A stretch of 64,000 bases of DNA from Paenibacillus kyungheensis (lineage in GTDB: Bacteria > Bacillota > Bacilli > Paenibacillales > Paenibacillaceae): contig NZ_CP117416.1 in the NCBI RefSeq assembly GCF_028606985.1, positions 1,154,001 to 1,218,000 on the forward strand. Direction: 5' to 3'. The notes beneath the pieces were generated by a model. It did not search any database. It was not told the DNA's origin and worked only from the letters and a program-made list of their open reading frames with translations. Of this stretch, positions 15,260-53,541 are shown one piece after another. Position 1 is the first letter of the stretch. Every line of letters starts with the position of its first letter. The translations under genes and the position numbers were made by a program.

Positions 15260-15344
15260 ATAAGTAATTTTACTTCCTCCAAATAATTCATAGTAATATA
15301 TTTATATTTTTGTGTTGTAAATATGAGTCGAAAAATTATATTTA

Positions 15345-15388
15345 TAAAAAATCCCCCTTCTTTTTATGAAAGAAGGGGGATTTTTTTA
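15345..15388. terminator. Bidirectional terminator between the phosphorylase and DUF3037 genes
   Basis: AAAAAATCCCCCTTCTTT pairs with AAAGAAGGGGGATTTTTT, giving T-tracts on both strands between two convergent genes. Confidence 0.9.
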
Positions 15389-15396
15389 TTATTTTA

Positions 15397-16248
15397 TTAT
15401 CTGGTTTCTTGTATCTCTTGAGTCATATTATCAGCAAATCGAATTATTTCGTCCCTTTCTTTTCCTTCAACTGTATTAGTTATTTCTTTTAAGATATTAA
15501 TTGCAGTTTTTACATTTTTATTTGAAGATTTCCCAGTATAAATAAAAGTGATAAGATCACAATCTTCCTGATGTCCTCCAAATAATTCATAGTTATTGAT
15601 TTTTTTTATTTTCTCAAAATTATATATCCATTCTTTAGCAATACTTGGAGCATTAGTACTTCCTTTTTCTGTATAATCAAAAGAAAAAGTTTTGATGATT
15701 TTTGTTCTATTATTAGAATGATATAAATAATCTAATTCTATTTCTTGTGGACCAATATCAATTTTAATATTTCTTTGTAATTCATTAAGTACATTATTAT
15801 TTACTAGAATTCTATTCATTAAGCTTTTAACTTCATCATCAGTTATTCTTGACTTCTTTTTATTGTCAAAATAAACATATGTTTTAAACAAATCATTTAA
15901 ATCTTCTTCAATATTAAGAGTGAAAAAAGAATTTGTAGGAGAAAATTGTATTTGATTAGCATAATAAAAGGTTTTTTTCTCTAGAAAATTTATATCAGCT
16001 AGTTCATTTTCAGAAGGTCCTGAGATTGTACTTTTTGTAAAACTTTCTTTTATCCCATCTAAAACAATTTTTAAAAATTTAATATCTACTTCATCATCAA
16101 AAGCATGAACCCTTTTAAAGTTTTTAGTTAATTTAAATTCAGTATGTTTAAGTTCTGGAGAATGAAAAACTATTCCAATATTTATAAATTCTTCTCTTAT
16201 TTCATCAGGAACATATCTTATGACAGAATATTTAAATAGGTGAGACAT
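15397..16248 (-). CDS. DUF3037 family protein, partner of the HipA-like kinase
   Basis: A 283-residue protein whose N-terminus (LFKYSVIRYVPDEIREEFINIGIVFHSP) matches the DUF3037 family. This family is often encoded beside HipA-like kinases; its function is unknown. The start follows the kinase stop by one base, and its GGAGGA ribosome site lies in the last codons of the kinase gene, so the two are coupled. The gene is much more AT-rich than the metabolic genes on either side, with long runs of A and T, which suggests acquisition by transfer. Fission into the terminator at 15345 closes the two-gene transcript. Confidence 0.8.
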   Translation of the reverse strand: MSHLFKYSVIRYVPDEIREEFINIGIVFHSPELKHTEFKLTKNFKRVHAFDDEVDIKFLKIVLDGIKESFTKSTISGPSENELADINFLEKKTFYYANQIQFSPTNSFFTLNIEEDLNDLFKTYVYFDNKKKSRITDDEVKSLMNRILVNNNVLNELQRNIKIDIGPQEIELDYLYHSNNRTKIIKTFSFDYTEKGSTNAPSIAKEWIYNFEKIKKINNYELFGGHQEDCDLITFIYTGKSSNKNVKTAINILKEITNTVEGKERDEIIRFADNMTQEIQETR

Positions 16249-16249
16249 C

Positions 16250-17059
16250 TCAGAGTCCTCCTTTCCAACTAGGCAGATTGTTTTTTAATAAAGGTAAAGT
16301 TTCCTCAATACGTTCTTTTCGATCACAAAGATAATTATTTAATGATAATTTGTCATCAGGACTGAGCAACCATTCGTTAGGAACACTATTAATGATATTC
16401 CAAATTTGATCAGTTGTCATTGTTTTTAATTTCTCTAAAATAGAATTAAATGGATTATAACCTTTGACATATGGGACAAGTTTACGGTAAACATGTCCAT
16501 TGAGATTCAATAATGTAAAAGGTTCACCAATTCTTTGATTTAGCTGACTTGCTTCCCAAATAGTTCCAAGATCAAAAGCATGAGTATGATCTAATATGAT
16601 TATTTTCTTTTGTTGAGGATCAAACAAAAGGTTTCCACCGTTATTATCTCTATCGCTATTGCATATAAATAAATCAAAGATAAGTAATTCAGCAATAATT
16701 TCGATGTTAATCGCCTCATTCAACATAGAACCAAGTTCTATTGGGTAAGCTTTTTTTAACTTTAAGCATCCAAAATGGACTCCTGGCAGTATATCGCTAC
16801 CAATGTGTTCTTTCAATTTCTGACCATACATAGAACAAAATTCTTCTGTTAGATGTATTAATACAGGCTTTGGTATTGGCAATTGTAGCAAAAGAGCTAA
16901 CTCTGAACAAATGTATTCGTTAACAATAGCTTTAATACCTTGAGGATTTTCTTTAAATTTAACAGCATAGGTTTGACCATCTTCACAGTTAATATAATAT
17001 GGCAATGTAGAACCATTTTTTATAGGATTCATAATTCTATTGGCTTTTAATGTATCCAT
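16250..17059 (-). CDS. HipA-like protein kinase, short form without HipB
   Basis: A 269-residue protein with the kinase core of HipA proteins: ATP-lysine context YAVKFK (Lys 34), catalytic segment CNSDRDNNGGNLLF (Asp 136, Asp 138, Asn 143) and metal-binding IILDHTHAF (Asp 157). Classical HipA toxins are about 440 residues and are encoded after the DNA-binding antitoxin HipB. Here the protein is much shorter, no HipB gene is present, and the partner is DUF3037. HipA kinases phosphorylate translation-related proteins; the target here is unknown. The start follows GGAGG by six bases. Low G+C suggests transfer. It could be a toxin, a defence component or a regulatory kinase. Confidence 0.78.
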   Translation of the reverse strand: MDTLKANRIMNPIKNGSTLPYYINCEDGQTYAVKFKENPQGIKAIVNEYICSELALLLQLPIPKPVLIHLTEEFCSMYGQKLKEHIGSDILPGVHFGCLKLKKAYPIELGSMLNEAINIEIIAELLIFDLFICNSDRDNNGGNLLFDPQQKKIIILDHTHAFDLGTIWEASQLNQRIGEPFTLLNLNGHVYRKLVPYVKGYNPFNSILEKLKTMTTDQIWNIINSVPNEWLLSPDDKLSLNNYLCDRKERIEETLPLLKNNLPSWKGGL

Positions 17060-17073
17060 TTAAATCCTCCAAA

Positions 17074-17093
17074 ATTTATGTATAAACATAAAT
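17074..17093 (-). promoter_or_regulatory. Inverted repeat in the HipA-like kinase leader
   Basis: ATTTATG and CATAAAT form perfect seven-base arms around six bases, just upstream of the GGAGG of the kinase gene. It could be an operator for autoregulation, or chance in AT-rich DNA. Confidence 0.35.
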
Positions 17094-17285
17094 ATAATAA
17101 TGACAAATTTAATTACAGTAAGGTTATCAAATATGCTAAAAATTAATAGTGTTATTTATAATATACAATATGATGATCGAAATAAAAACTGAACATACTA
17201 TAGTATATTTCATACAAAATTAATCTTAGTACAAAAACAAATAAAAACCTGCCCTCAAGCATACAGCCATCCTCCACCTTTTACA

Positions 17286-18384: not shown

Positions 18385-20248
18385 ATGGATACGCCGCTCT
18401 TTACAAAAAGATTGGCGTTACTGGCATCCTGAAAATTTACCTTTGCGCCATCAATTGATTGTGTTGTTTTTGATGGTAGGTATTTTGCCTGCAATTTTAC
18501 TGGGAATTATGGTGAATTGGACATCCAATCAGATTATTGAGCGTCAGGTGACAGCGAATACGATGCAATTAATTAGCAAGGTCAACCAAACGCTAGATAC
18601 GTATATGGAAAATATGCAAAGTATCACGTATTTAATCAGTTTTGATCGGAATGTTGACCAATTTCTAGCCGGTCAATCGTTAAACAAAAATGATGCTTCC
18701 GATACATCAACGTATCAGATTCGGCAGTTTTTGCAAGGATTTACAACCGTTTATTCCGAGATTGCCGGAATCTTAATCGTTAATACCAAAGGCGATTATA
18801 TCAGTAATGAACTGTATGCAAGGTACAATCAAAGTCTGACTAAAGAATATTGGTATCAACAGGCGATCAAGCAAAAAGGAATCTTTACGATTATCGGTCA
18901 TCCATCCGGTCGCAATATTACAAGTCATGCGAATTATGGAGAAGATGAGGTTGTAACGGTCGTGCGTTCGATCAATGATCCGACCACAGGTGAAGTCAAA
19001 GGTGTGATTTTGATCGATCTCAAGTTACGTGTTATTGCTCAAGCAGCCAAAGATGTGACACTGGGCAAAACAGGGTATCTGATGGTAACAGATCCTACGG
19101 GGCATGTTATTTACGCACCGTCCGATACCTTTATGCAAAGTATTCCTGCCAAATTAACCGCTTCGCTTCGGCAATCGGAGAATGTATTTACCGAAGAGAT
19201 TCAAGGGCAACAATTACAATTTATTTATCGGACATCGTCATATACAGGCTGGAAAACAGTCGGCGTTTTCCAATTTAGTGAATCAGTAGCTGAAGCGCGC
19301 ACGATTCGCTTTTATATCGTTATTTTTCTATTCTGTGTCTGTTTTACAGGGCTTACCGCTTCATATGGATTAGCCAATTCGATCTCTAGACCGATCTACC
19401 GACTATCTTCGTTGATGCAAAAAGCAGAATCAGGCGATATGACTTCTCGTTATATTAGCAATAGACGGGATGAAGTAGGGATGTTGGGACGTAGCTTTAA
19501 TCGAATGATGAATGAGATTCGTAATCTAATCTCACTAAATCAGCAAAAAGAACAGCAAAAGCGAGAAGCTGAATTACGCAGTCTACAAGCCCATATTCGT
19601 CCCCATTTTCTATACAATACGCTGGATACAATTCATTGGATGGCGCAGAAAAAAGGGGCAGACGATGTGTCCAGTATGGTGGATGCATTATCCAAACTGT
19701 TCCGTATTGGGCTAAGCCGTGGCAGTGATATGATCACACTGGCTGAAGAAGAACAGCATATTGTCAGTTATTTGCAAATTCAGAAAACACGTTATCGCGA
19801 TCGGCTACAATACGATATTCAGATCGATGAGGCAATCCGCAATGTATATGTGATGAAATTACTACTACAACCGATTGTAGAAAATGCCATCTATCATGGA
19901 ATCAAAGCAAGGCGGGGCCCCGGCAATATCTATATTGCAGCACAACAACAAGACGACAAATTAGTGTATACCATTAGCGATGATGGTGCAGGATTTAGTG
20001 AAGAGCGATTGATTCAAATCCAATACCAACTCGCCGAACCGCTCGATTGGATCGGACAACAAGGTCCTGAACCAACAGGAAGCTATGGTCTGCTAAATAT
20101 TCAAGCCCGTATCCACCTAGCCTACGGCACAAGCTACGGTGTAAGTATTCACCCACGCCCAGAAGGCGGAACAACCATCCAGGTCACCCAACCATTGTTA
20201 TGGAATATGCCTAGCGCTTGGCACCATAAGCGCGACCCAAACGAATGA
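18359..20248 (+). CDS. Sensor histidine kinase, LytS/YesM type
   Basis: A 629-residue membrane kinase: first membrane segment at about residues 32-52 (LIVLFLMVGILPAILLGIMV), a large extracellular sensor region, second segment near 318-340, HAMP (ISRPIYRLSSLMQKAESGDM), the His_kinase box RPHFLYNTLDTIHWM (His 416) and an HATPase domain (LLQPIVENAIYHG, ISDDGAGFS, GSYGLLNIQARI). The start overlaps the upstream gene by 26 bases and neither ATG 18359 nor ATG 18374 has a clear ribosome site, so translation is probably coupled. The last 11 codons and the stop lie inside the first copy of a 72-bp tandem repeat. Confidence 0.88.
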   Translation: MWLIIMRNKWIRRSLQKDWRYWHPENLPLRHQLIVLFLMVGILPAILLGIMVNWTSNQIIERQVTANTMQLISKVNQTLDTYMENMQSITYLISFDRNVDQFLAGQSLNKNDASDTSTYQIRQFLQGFTTVYSEIAGILIVNTKGDYISNELYARYNQSLTKEYWYQQAIKQKGIFTIIGHPSGRNITSHANYGEDEVVTVVRSINDPTTGEVKGVILIDLKLRVIAQAAKDVTLGKTGYLMVTDPTGHVIYAPSDTFMQSIPAKLTASLRQSENVFTEEIQGQQLQFIYRTSSYTGWKTVGVFQFSESVAEARTIRFYIVIFLFCVCFTGLTASYGLANSISRPIYRLSSLMQKAESGDMTSRYISNRRDEVGMLGRSFNRMMNEIRNLISLNQQKEQQKREAELRSLQAHIRPHFLYNTLDTIHWMAQKKGADDVSSMVDALSKLFRIGLSRGSDMITLAEEEQHIVSYLQIQKTRYRDRLQYDIQIDEAIRNVYVMKLLLQPIVENAIYHGIKARRGPGNIYIAAQQQDDKLVYTISDDGAGFSEERLIQIQYQLAEPLDWIGQQGPEPTGSYGLLNIQARIHLAYGTSYGVSIHPRPEGGTTIQVTQPLLWNMPSAWHHKRDPNE

Positions 20249-20490
20249 AAAAATGATTTTTGCAAAGCAAAATATCTTACATTAAGCGCTTGGCACCATA
20301 AGCGCGACCCAAACGAATGAAAAAATGATTTTTGCAAAGCAAAATATCTTACATTAAGCGCTTGGCACCATAAGCGCGACCCAAACGAATGAAACCATGA
20401 TTTTTGCGAAGCAAAATATCTTACATCAAGCGCTTGGCACCACAAGCGCGACTCAGTGTAGTAAAAAAGTGATTTTTGCAAAACCAGATC
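20213..20490 (+). repeat. 72-bp tandem repeat array, four copies
   Basis: Copies begin AGCGCTTGGCACC at 20213, 20285, 20357 and 20429, a constant period of 72 bases. Copies 1 and 2 are identical, copy 3 has four changes, copy 4 diverges after about 25 bases but recovers a TGATTTTTGCAAA match. Each unit can fold two hairpins: GCGCTT/AAGCGC around eight bases, and ATTTTGC/GCAAAAT around a short loop. Copy 1 supplies the C-terminus and stop codon of the kinase gene; the array fills the spacer before the response-regulator gene. The period is divisible by three, which also creates a meaningless long antisense frame. Confidence 0.92.
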
Positions 20491-52197: not shown

Positions 52198-53541
52198 ATG
52201 AATATTACACCTAATGCGAGTTACTCTTCGACGGCTAGCCAGAATTCATACTACTCCTCACTCTCTGGTGATTCTAATAAATCGACAACAACTAATGGAA
52301 AAAATGCAGTATCTACTAATCCTGCTTCACCTACTGATAACAATCGAACTGACAAAACACCAGCCGAACAAAAAATAGAAAGCAATAAAGAATACAAAAA
52401 AGAACTGCAAAAAAAGGAAACAAGAGATAAAGAACTGGATGAACTTTTTGATAATCAACAGCAACGTAAAGAAGAAATAAATAAGCAAGTACATGAGACA
52501 TTAACAAACAATGGATTTTATCAACTTGGTGCACAAAATGGGATAGCGCTTACGAAAGAAAATATGGATGAAACGATGAAGAGTTTGTTTAACAAAGGGT
52601 TTCAAGTGGATTCCAATGAGGAAAAAATGACGCTGACTTCCAAAGTACATCAGATGAAAATGGAAATTAGCAAAAATGCATATGATAAATATGTAGAAGC
52701 TGTCTATGGACAATTGAATCCTGTATCAGATCAGATTTCCAAACCAAAAACTGATCCATCTATGATCAAAACAGGTGTATATTCACCGCCAGCTTCTATG
52801 GTGAAGCCGATATTGACTACAGTAGGTACAGCTACAGGTTCGATCCCTTCAACAGTCAATCCATCTGTACTAGGATCTGAAGTAACTAAGCCAGCACCAG
52901 AGCCAGTAGCGACAACGCCGACACCAACACCAGTACCAACAAGTACACCAGCACCAGAGCCAGTAGCAACAACGCCGACACCGACACCAGCACCAACAAG
53001 TACACCAGCACCAGAGCCAGTAGCGACAACGCCGACACCAACACCAGCACCAACAAGTACGCCAGCACCAGAGCCGGTAGCAACAACGCCGACACCGACA
53101 CCAGTACAAACAAGTACGCCAGCACCAGAGCCAGTAGCGACAACGCCGACACCAACACCAACACCAGTACCAACACCAGTACCAACAAGTACACCTACAC
53201 CAGCACCATCCACAACAAACACGATTAGTACACCGGTGAGCACTACAACAAATTCAACTACTAACAATACAACAACCAGTTCTACTTCAGTTAATATTCC
53301 GGTCACTGTTCCTAACGTTATTACCGTAAGCACATCTATTCCGGTATCATCCACTTCTACACCAACATCAACAACGTCAGCACCTTTAGTATCAGTGACA
53401 AGTCCGTTGTTAACGCCGAAATCTACATCTACTGTTGTTCCAACAACTACAACAGCAACAGCGCCAACAACGACTACCGCTCCGACTACAACTTCTACAA
53501 CAAGTACATCTACTAAAAATGTACTTGGACTTTTGAAGTAA
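52198..53541 (+). CDS. Unknown protein with coiled-coil core and Pro/Thr-repeat tail, paralogue 2
   Basis: A 447-residue protein with GAAGGAG upstream of ATG 52198, and no signal peptide. The start (MNITPNASYSSTASQNSYYS) and charged core (YKKELQKKETRDKELDELFD, KGFQVDSNEEKMTLTSKVHQ, MKMEISKNAYDKYVEAVYGQ) align well with paralogue 1. The tail differs: five tandem copies of a 19-residue Pro/Thr-rich unit (PAPEPVATTPTPTPVPTST), then a long Thr/Ser stretch, ending KNVLGLLK. The conserved core and freely varying tails suggest the tail acts as a flexible, possibly glycosylated, spacer. Family and function unknown. Confidence 0.7.
   Translation: MNITPNASYSSTASQNSYYSSLSGDSNKSTTTNGKNAVSTNPASPTDNNRTDKTPAEQKIESNKEYKKELQKKETRDKELDELFDNQQQRKEEINKQVHETLTNNGFYQLGAQNGIALTKENMDETMKSLFNKGFQVDSNEEKMTLTSKVHQMKMEISKNAYDKYVEAVYGQLNPVSDQISKPKTDPSMIKTGVYSPPASMVKPILTTVGTATGSIPSTVNPSVLGSEVTKPAPEPVATTPTPTPVPTSTPAPEPVATTPTPTPAPTSTPAPEPVATTPTPTPAPTSTPAPEPVATTPTPTPVQTSTPAPEPVATTPTPTPTPVPTPVPTSTPTPAPSTTNTISTPVSTTTNSTTNNTTTSSTSVNIPVTVPNVITVSTSIPVSSTSTPTSTTSAPLVSVTSPLLTPKSTSTVVPTTTTATAPTTTTAPTTTSTTSTSTKNVLGLLK
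52891..53200 (+). repeat. 57-bp in-frame tandem repeat
   Basis: Four units of exactly 57 bases begin CCAGCACCAGAGCCAGTAGC or a near variant at 52891, 52948, 53005 and 53062. A fifth, extended unit begins at 53119. Units differ mainly by synonymous or Val/Ala changes. The repeat is in frame with the paralogue 2 gene. Confidence 0.92.

Follow-up and report, generated by a model that had tools for sequence, protein, structure and literature searches.

The 64,000-nucleotide stretch of Paenibacillus kyungheensis DNA analysed here (hereafter the window) carries on its reverse strand two intact reading frames, encoding a 269-aa kinase and, after a gap of 1 bp, a 283-aa DUF3037 protein. The kinase scores 106.8 bits against the Pfam profile HipA_2 (PF20613; cut-off 27) and its partner scores 76.3 bits against DUF3037 (PF11236; cut-off 22.6). 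The G+C content is 0.310 for the kinase gene and 0.238 for the DUF3037 gene (24-31%), compared to 0.42-0.44 for the flanking genes, and the pair is followed by a strong stem-loop with terminator-like matches on both strands. The intact frames, profile scores, low G+C and terminator together indicate that the pair is real at the coordinates given in Table 1. The adjoining genes, read from their sequences, comprise one of nucleoside-phosphorylase type and a set for a sugar-binding protein and a two-component system. No HipB-like gene adjoins the pair, and we saw no recognisable defence island or prophage around it. The original prediction of a HipA-like kinase and DUF3037 pair without HipB, AT-rich and closed by a bidirectional terminator, thus agrees with what we find at the locus.

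Table 1. Features of the kinase/DUF3037 locus and of the corresponding site in congeners. Positions are those of the window unless a locus is named.
Feature	Position	Strand	Basis
Acquired block, about 2.02 kb	15264..17284	.	bounded where homology to the closest congener stops/resumes
Stem-loop terminator, strong, T-runs on both strands	15346..15386	.	-25.5 kcal/mol, z -5.35; terminator-like matches on both strands
HipD-like antitoxin, DUF3037 protein, 283 aa	15397..16248	-	PF11236; PDC-M66B; phage PhiR5_1 HipD
HipD C-terminal domain, residues ~136-283	15400..15843	-	AlphaFold2; probable PD-(D/E)XK-like fold, active-site motif incomplete
HipD N-terminal DUF3037 domain, residues 7-125	15874..16230	-	PF11236 profile positions 1-118 of 118
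HipA-like kinase (putative toxin), 269 aa	16250..17059	-	PF20613; PDC-M66A; pLDDT 91.5; kinase-fold matches
Kinase C-terminal W-K-G-G tail, residues 265-268	16256..16267	-	invariant in 9/9 clade members
Catalytic segment D136-R137 ... N143 ... D157-H158	16586..16654	-	invariant in 9-member clade alignment
Lys34, presumed nucleotide-binding lysine	16958..16960	-	fully conserved in 9 clade members, almost so in 11 kinases
GGAGG ribosome-binding site before the kinase gene	17066..17070	-	by reading the sequence
20-bp inverted repeat in leader, 8-bp arms, 4-bp spacer	17074..17093	.	unsupported as operator
Five-gene peptide/nickel-type ABC operon	L041 2176-7271 (G007)		equivalents L042, L044, L045, L046

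The inverted repeat in the leader had been put forward as a control site. Arms of equal length occur in 8.1% of dinucleotide shuffles of the leader (4.6% for its first 60 bp), which is near chance, and no counterpart was found 5' of the related pairs examined. We have therefore rejected it as an operator.

The conserved residues of the kinase were for the most part correctly picked out in the original prediction, with one exception: Lys34, Asp136, Asn143 and Asp157 stood up to comparison, but position 138, proposed as a catalytic Asp, is Asp, Thr, Ala, Val or another residue in relatives and was rejected. It is Arg137 and His158 that are invariant instead, together with Asn143 and Asp157, in an alignment of 11 kinases, in which Asp136 is nearly so. 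The length of 269 aa, seen earlier as unusually short, is confirmed but is normal for the family, whose coupled members seen here range from roughly 250 to 340 aa; the kinase is hence not truncated. Its predicted structure (pTM 0.90) is closest, among solved kinase folds, to CtkA (PDB 3akk; Z 16.4 over 216 residues, 3.5 A), followed by PI4KII (Z 14.7), HipT (Z 12.9) and HipA (Z 11.9). CtkA nonetheless shares only 16% identity with the window kinase, and we know of no DUF3037 partner of CtkA. Residues 16-263 of the model match residues 150-433 of 4pu4_A, which is the core kinase only. The model thus indicates that the protein has the core of a HipA-type kinase but lacks the N-terminal subdomain 1 of HipA, which is a protein of about 430-440 aa. 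Sequence searches of solved structures with the kinase and with its partner gave no reliable match for either, and no NCBIfam model matches the pair. The W-K-G-G tail of the kinase reads W-R-G-G in one relative (L052) and is absent from the phage HipA described below. The parts of the published HipA/DUF3037 descriptions available to us make no mention of it, and it is a candidate for contacts with either the partner protein or the kinase's own active site.

The pair is a further member of a system whose main features have already been published, to which our analysis adds a divergent clade, the kinase tail and the C-terminal fold of the partner. The PADLOC models PDC-M66A and PDC-M66B match the kinase (5.3e-28, residues 3-254) and the DUF3037 protein (3.4e-21, residues 4-281), respectively, and phage protein families of the PHROGs collection match both. 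The DefensePredictor paper describes DS-6, renamed HipAD and credited to Brenes and Laub (2025), as a system that protects E. coli and that loses its effect when the kinase is altered at a predicted catalytic residue; AlphaFold3 predicts a contact between kinase and partner (ipTM 0.76-0.79) and a weaker one between partner and DNA (PMC13092281). In a HipA/DUF3037 pair located beside retron Sda1, deletion of the kinase gene is reported to end defence and deletion of the DUF3037 gene to be toxic, the pair being stand-alone and the retron parts dispensable (PMC12548924). The same two protein families make up the window pair, which in contrast has no reverse-transcriptase-like gene adjoining it. 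The view that the biochemistry of such pairs is undescribed is thus outdated, PDC-M66, DS-6 and HipAD being the same two-gene pair of a HipA-like kinase and a DUF3037 protein, already tested in E. coli.

Escherichia phage PhiR5_1 carries, between cI and Kil, a pair annotated as HipA toxin and HipD antitoxin, and we have adopted the name HipD for the window DUF3037 protein. Its genes have the same order and coupling as those of the window pair, and homology extends over most of the length of both proteins. Identity is low, however (~25-30% for the kinases, and 24% over 96% of the length for HipD), and the window pair differs further in belonging to a Bacilli clade with the W-K/R-G-G kinase tail and in being an isolated insert rather than part of a prophage. 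HipBA and HipBST also place a HipA-superfamily kinase, of a fold matched by the window kinase (see above), under the control of a neighbouring gene, but neither a HipB nor a HipS gene accompanies the window pair, and its antitoxin is of another family. The string DUF does not occur in the main text of a 2021 survey of HipA kinase families (PMC8262856), which places the kinase/DUF3037 pair outside its classification.

The AlphaFold2 model of HipD (pLDDT 82) has a pTM of 0.52, which makes the packing of its two domains uncertain. The structural matches of its C-terminal half are mostly PD-(D/E)XK or ERCC4-type proteins with Z values of 6-9, including Can2 and Card1. The individual scores, for example Bax1 (Z 9.1 over 111 residues, 4.2 A), Mus81-Eme1 (8.3), BsoBI (8.1) and Can2 (7.5), are only slightly above the level of unrelated pairs, but a single superfamily dominates the list, and the model suggests that this half likely has a PD-(D/E)XK-like fold. 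The D ... (D/E)XK catalytic motif is incomplete: with the motif columns assigned by sequence rather than by superposition, the Bacilli clade retains D173 and K186, all its members have a hydrophobic residue at the (D/E) position (184), and the D or the K is lost in distant relatives. Because of this incomplete motif, we infer that the predicted domain is non-catalytic and perhaps DNA-binding, which would agree with the AlphaFold3 prediction for DS-6B. DS-6B was reported with DUF1829, whereas a Pfam scan found none in either the window HipD or the phage HipD; one of the proteins matched in fold by the window HipD is a DUF1828 protein of phage.

Comparative genomics ties the two genes closely together. 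Scans of Bacillota genomes and viral contigs with the closer kinase alignment (A4) found seven and three loci, respectively, and a DUF3037 gene lies directly 3' of the kinase gene in all ten. These loci amount to eight independent ones, since two (L068 and L072) are apparently the same Ureibacillus prophage and two others (L070 and L071) are near identical. Scans of genome and viral contigs with the single kinase protein, and of viral contigs with a DUF3037 alignment, gave no match. Among 399 genomes drawn from the Bacilli, seven, including the window genome, encode a DUF3037 protein, and a kinase gene adjoins it in each. The gap between the two genes ranges from -34 to +8 bp in relatives, and the divergence of the kinase follows that of its partner across 14 pairs with a correlation of 0.96, a value reached in none of 5000 permutations. 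In genome G387 (L056, 179-1349), the DUF3037 gene is intact and the kinase lacks its first ~150 residues, which is the combination that a toxin-antitoxin pair tolerates. Several relatives adjoin integrase, ImmA-like, repressor, tail or endolysin genes and, from the protein sequences of these neighbours, appear to lie in prophages; others adjoin transposase-like genes. A separate set of HipA_2-type kinases is found without DUF3037 beside glycosyltransferase-like genes (L003, L005, L006, L007 and L008), with a CotS-like kinase gene also adjoining in L005-L008 in what resembles a spore-coat-type cluster. These kinases are possibly a second, non-toxin branch of the family.

The window genome has acquired its pair. 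All 16 congeners lack it, and blastn against the closest of them (G007) gives 88.9% identity up to position 15263 and 88.0% from position 17285, with no homology between, which marks about 2.02 kb as foreign; this block holds no gene other than the pair. Presence of the pair at this locus in every relative, by vertical descent, would have spoken against an acquired cassette; it was looked for and was seen in none of the 16. The original prediction also suggested looking for an empty site in relatives, and this was found in part: one congener (G001) has about 150 bp at this position, but in five others (G004, G005, G007, G010 and G012) the position is taken by a five-gene peptide/nickel-type ABC-transporter operon, and we have accordingly rejected a simple insertion into an empty site. 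No close copy of the operon's substrate-binding protein is present in the rest of the window genome (best 29%), suggesting that the operon was lost or replaced either before the insertion or together with it. The pair has entered a housekeeping locus that in relatives carries a transporter operon.

We consider it very probable, on the grounds of homology, comparative genomics and published experiments on relatives, that the window pair is a toxin-antitoxin anti-phage module of the HipAD type (DS-6/PADLOC PDC-M66), in line with the earlier suggestion of a toxin-antidote or defence module. The short HipA_2 kinase would be the toxin: when free, it would phosphorylate a host (or phage) protein, growth would stop and the infection would abort. 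The DUF3037 protein, encoded one base downstream on the same message, would bind the kinase and hold it inactive; its C-terminal domain may in addition bind DNA. Phage infection would relieve this inhibition, resulting in abortive defence. The steps of this scheme that concern the toxin, the antitoxin and the dependence on the kinase are based on E. coli experiments with distant, Gram-negative versions, as given in the papers cited above; no trigger or substrate is named in the HipAD descriptions read. For the window copy, we infer that it is active, as well as its substrate, trigger and DNA binding.

A selfish addiction module, kept because its loss is costly and having no defence role in this host, would equally be an acquired, compact and self-contained pair, and the transposase-like genes beside some relatives would fit such an element. 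We nevertheless find this unlikely, since homologues protect against phage in a manner that requires the kinase (PMC12548924; PMC13092281), and many relatives are found in prophages by repressor, ImmA-like and integrase genes, a usual place for superinfection defence. The kinase might instead be regulatory or structural, with no toxin involved, as the HipA_2 kinases of spore-coat-type clusters may be. PF20613-type kinases without DUF3037 indeed lie between glycosyltransferase-like and CotS-like kinase genes in several Bacillales, and the HipA_2 family is thus not uniformly composed of toxins. These kinases are, however, a different group with about 23-26% identity to the window kinase, which groups with the DUF3037-coupled ones (34-51%), and a regulatory role for it therefore seems very improbable. 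That the pair is a decayed or silent remnant without present function would be in keeping with its very low G+C and its occurrence in only one of the species sampled from the genus, but both frames are intact, the catalytic residues are kept and ribosome-binding sites and a terminator are present, leaving this explanation scarcely credible.

As a HipAD-type module, the pair would add a divergent clade of Bacilli, associated with prophages, to the range of a kinase-based defence that has recently been validated, and two of its parts, the C-terminal domain of HipD with its likeness to a dead nuclease and the tail of the kinase, would offer handles on how the kinase is held and released. One speculative and rather doubtful version of this scheme makes HipD both lock and sensor: its DUF3037 domain would hold the kinase, its dead PD-(D/E)XK-like domain would read phage DNA or DNA damage and release the kinase, and the W-K/R-G-G tail would serve as a latch in the Bacilli clade. 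If this were the case, sensing of the trigger would be tied directly to the antitoxin.

Two further repeats were observed elsewhere in the window. A 72-bp unit is present in 3.8 copies (91% match) at positions 20213-20482, between sensor kinase and response regulator genes, and a 57-bp repeat in 4.8 copies (92%) at positions 52891-53166 codes for a Pro/Thr-rich stretch within a 447-aa frame (52198-53541).
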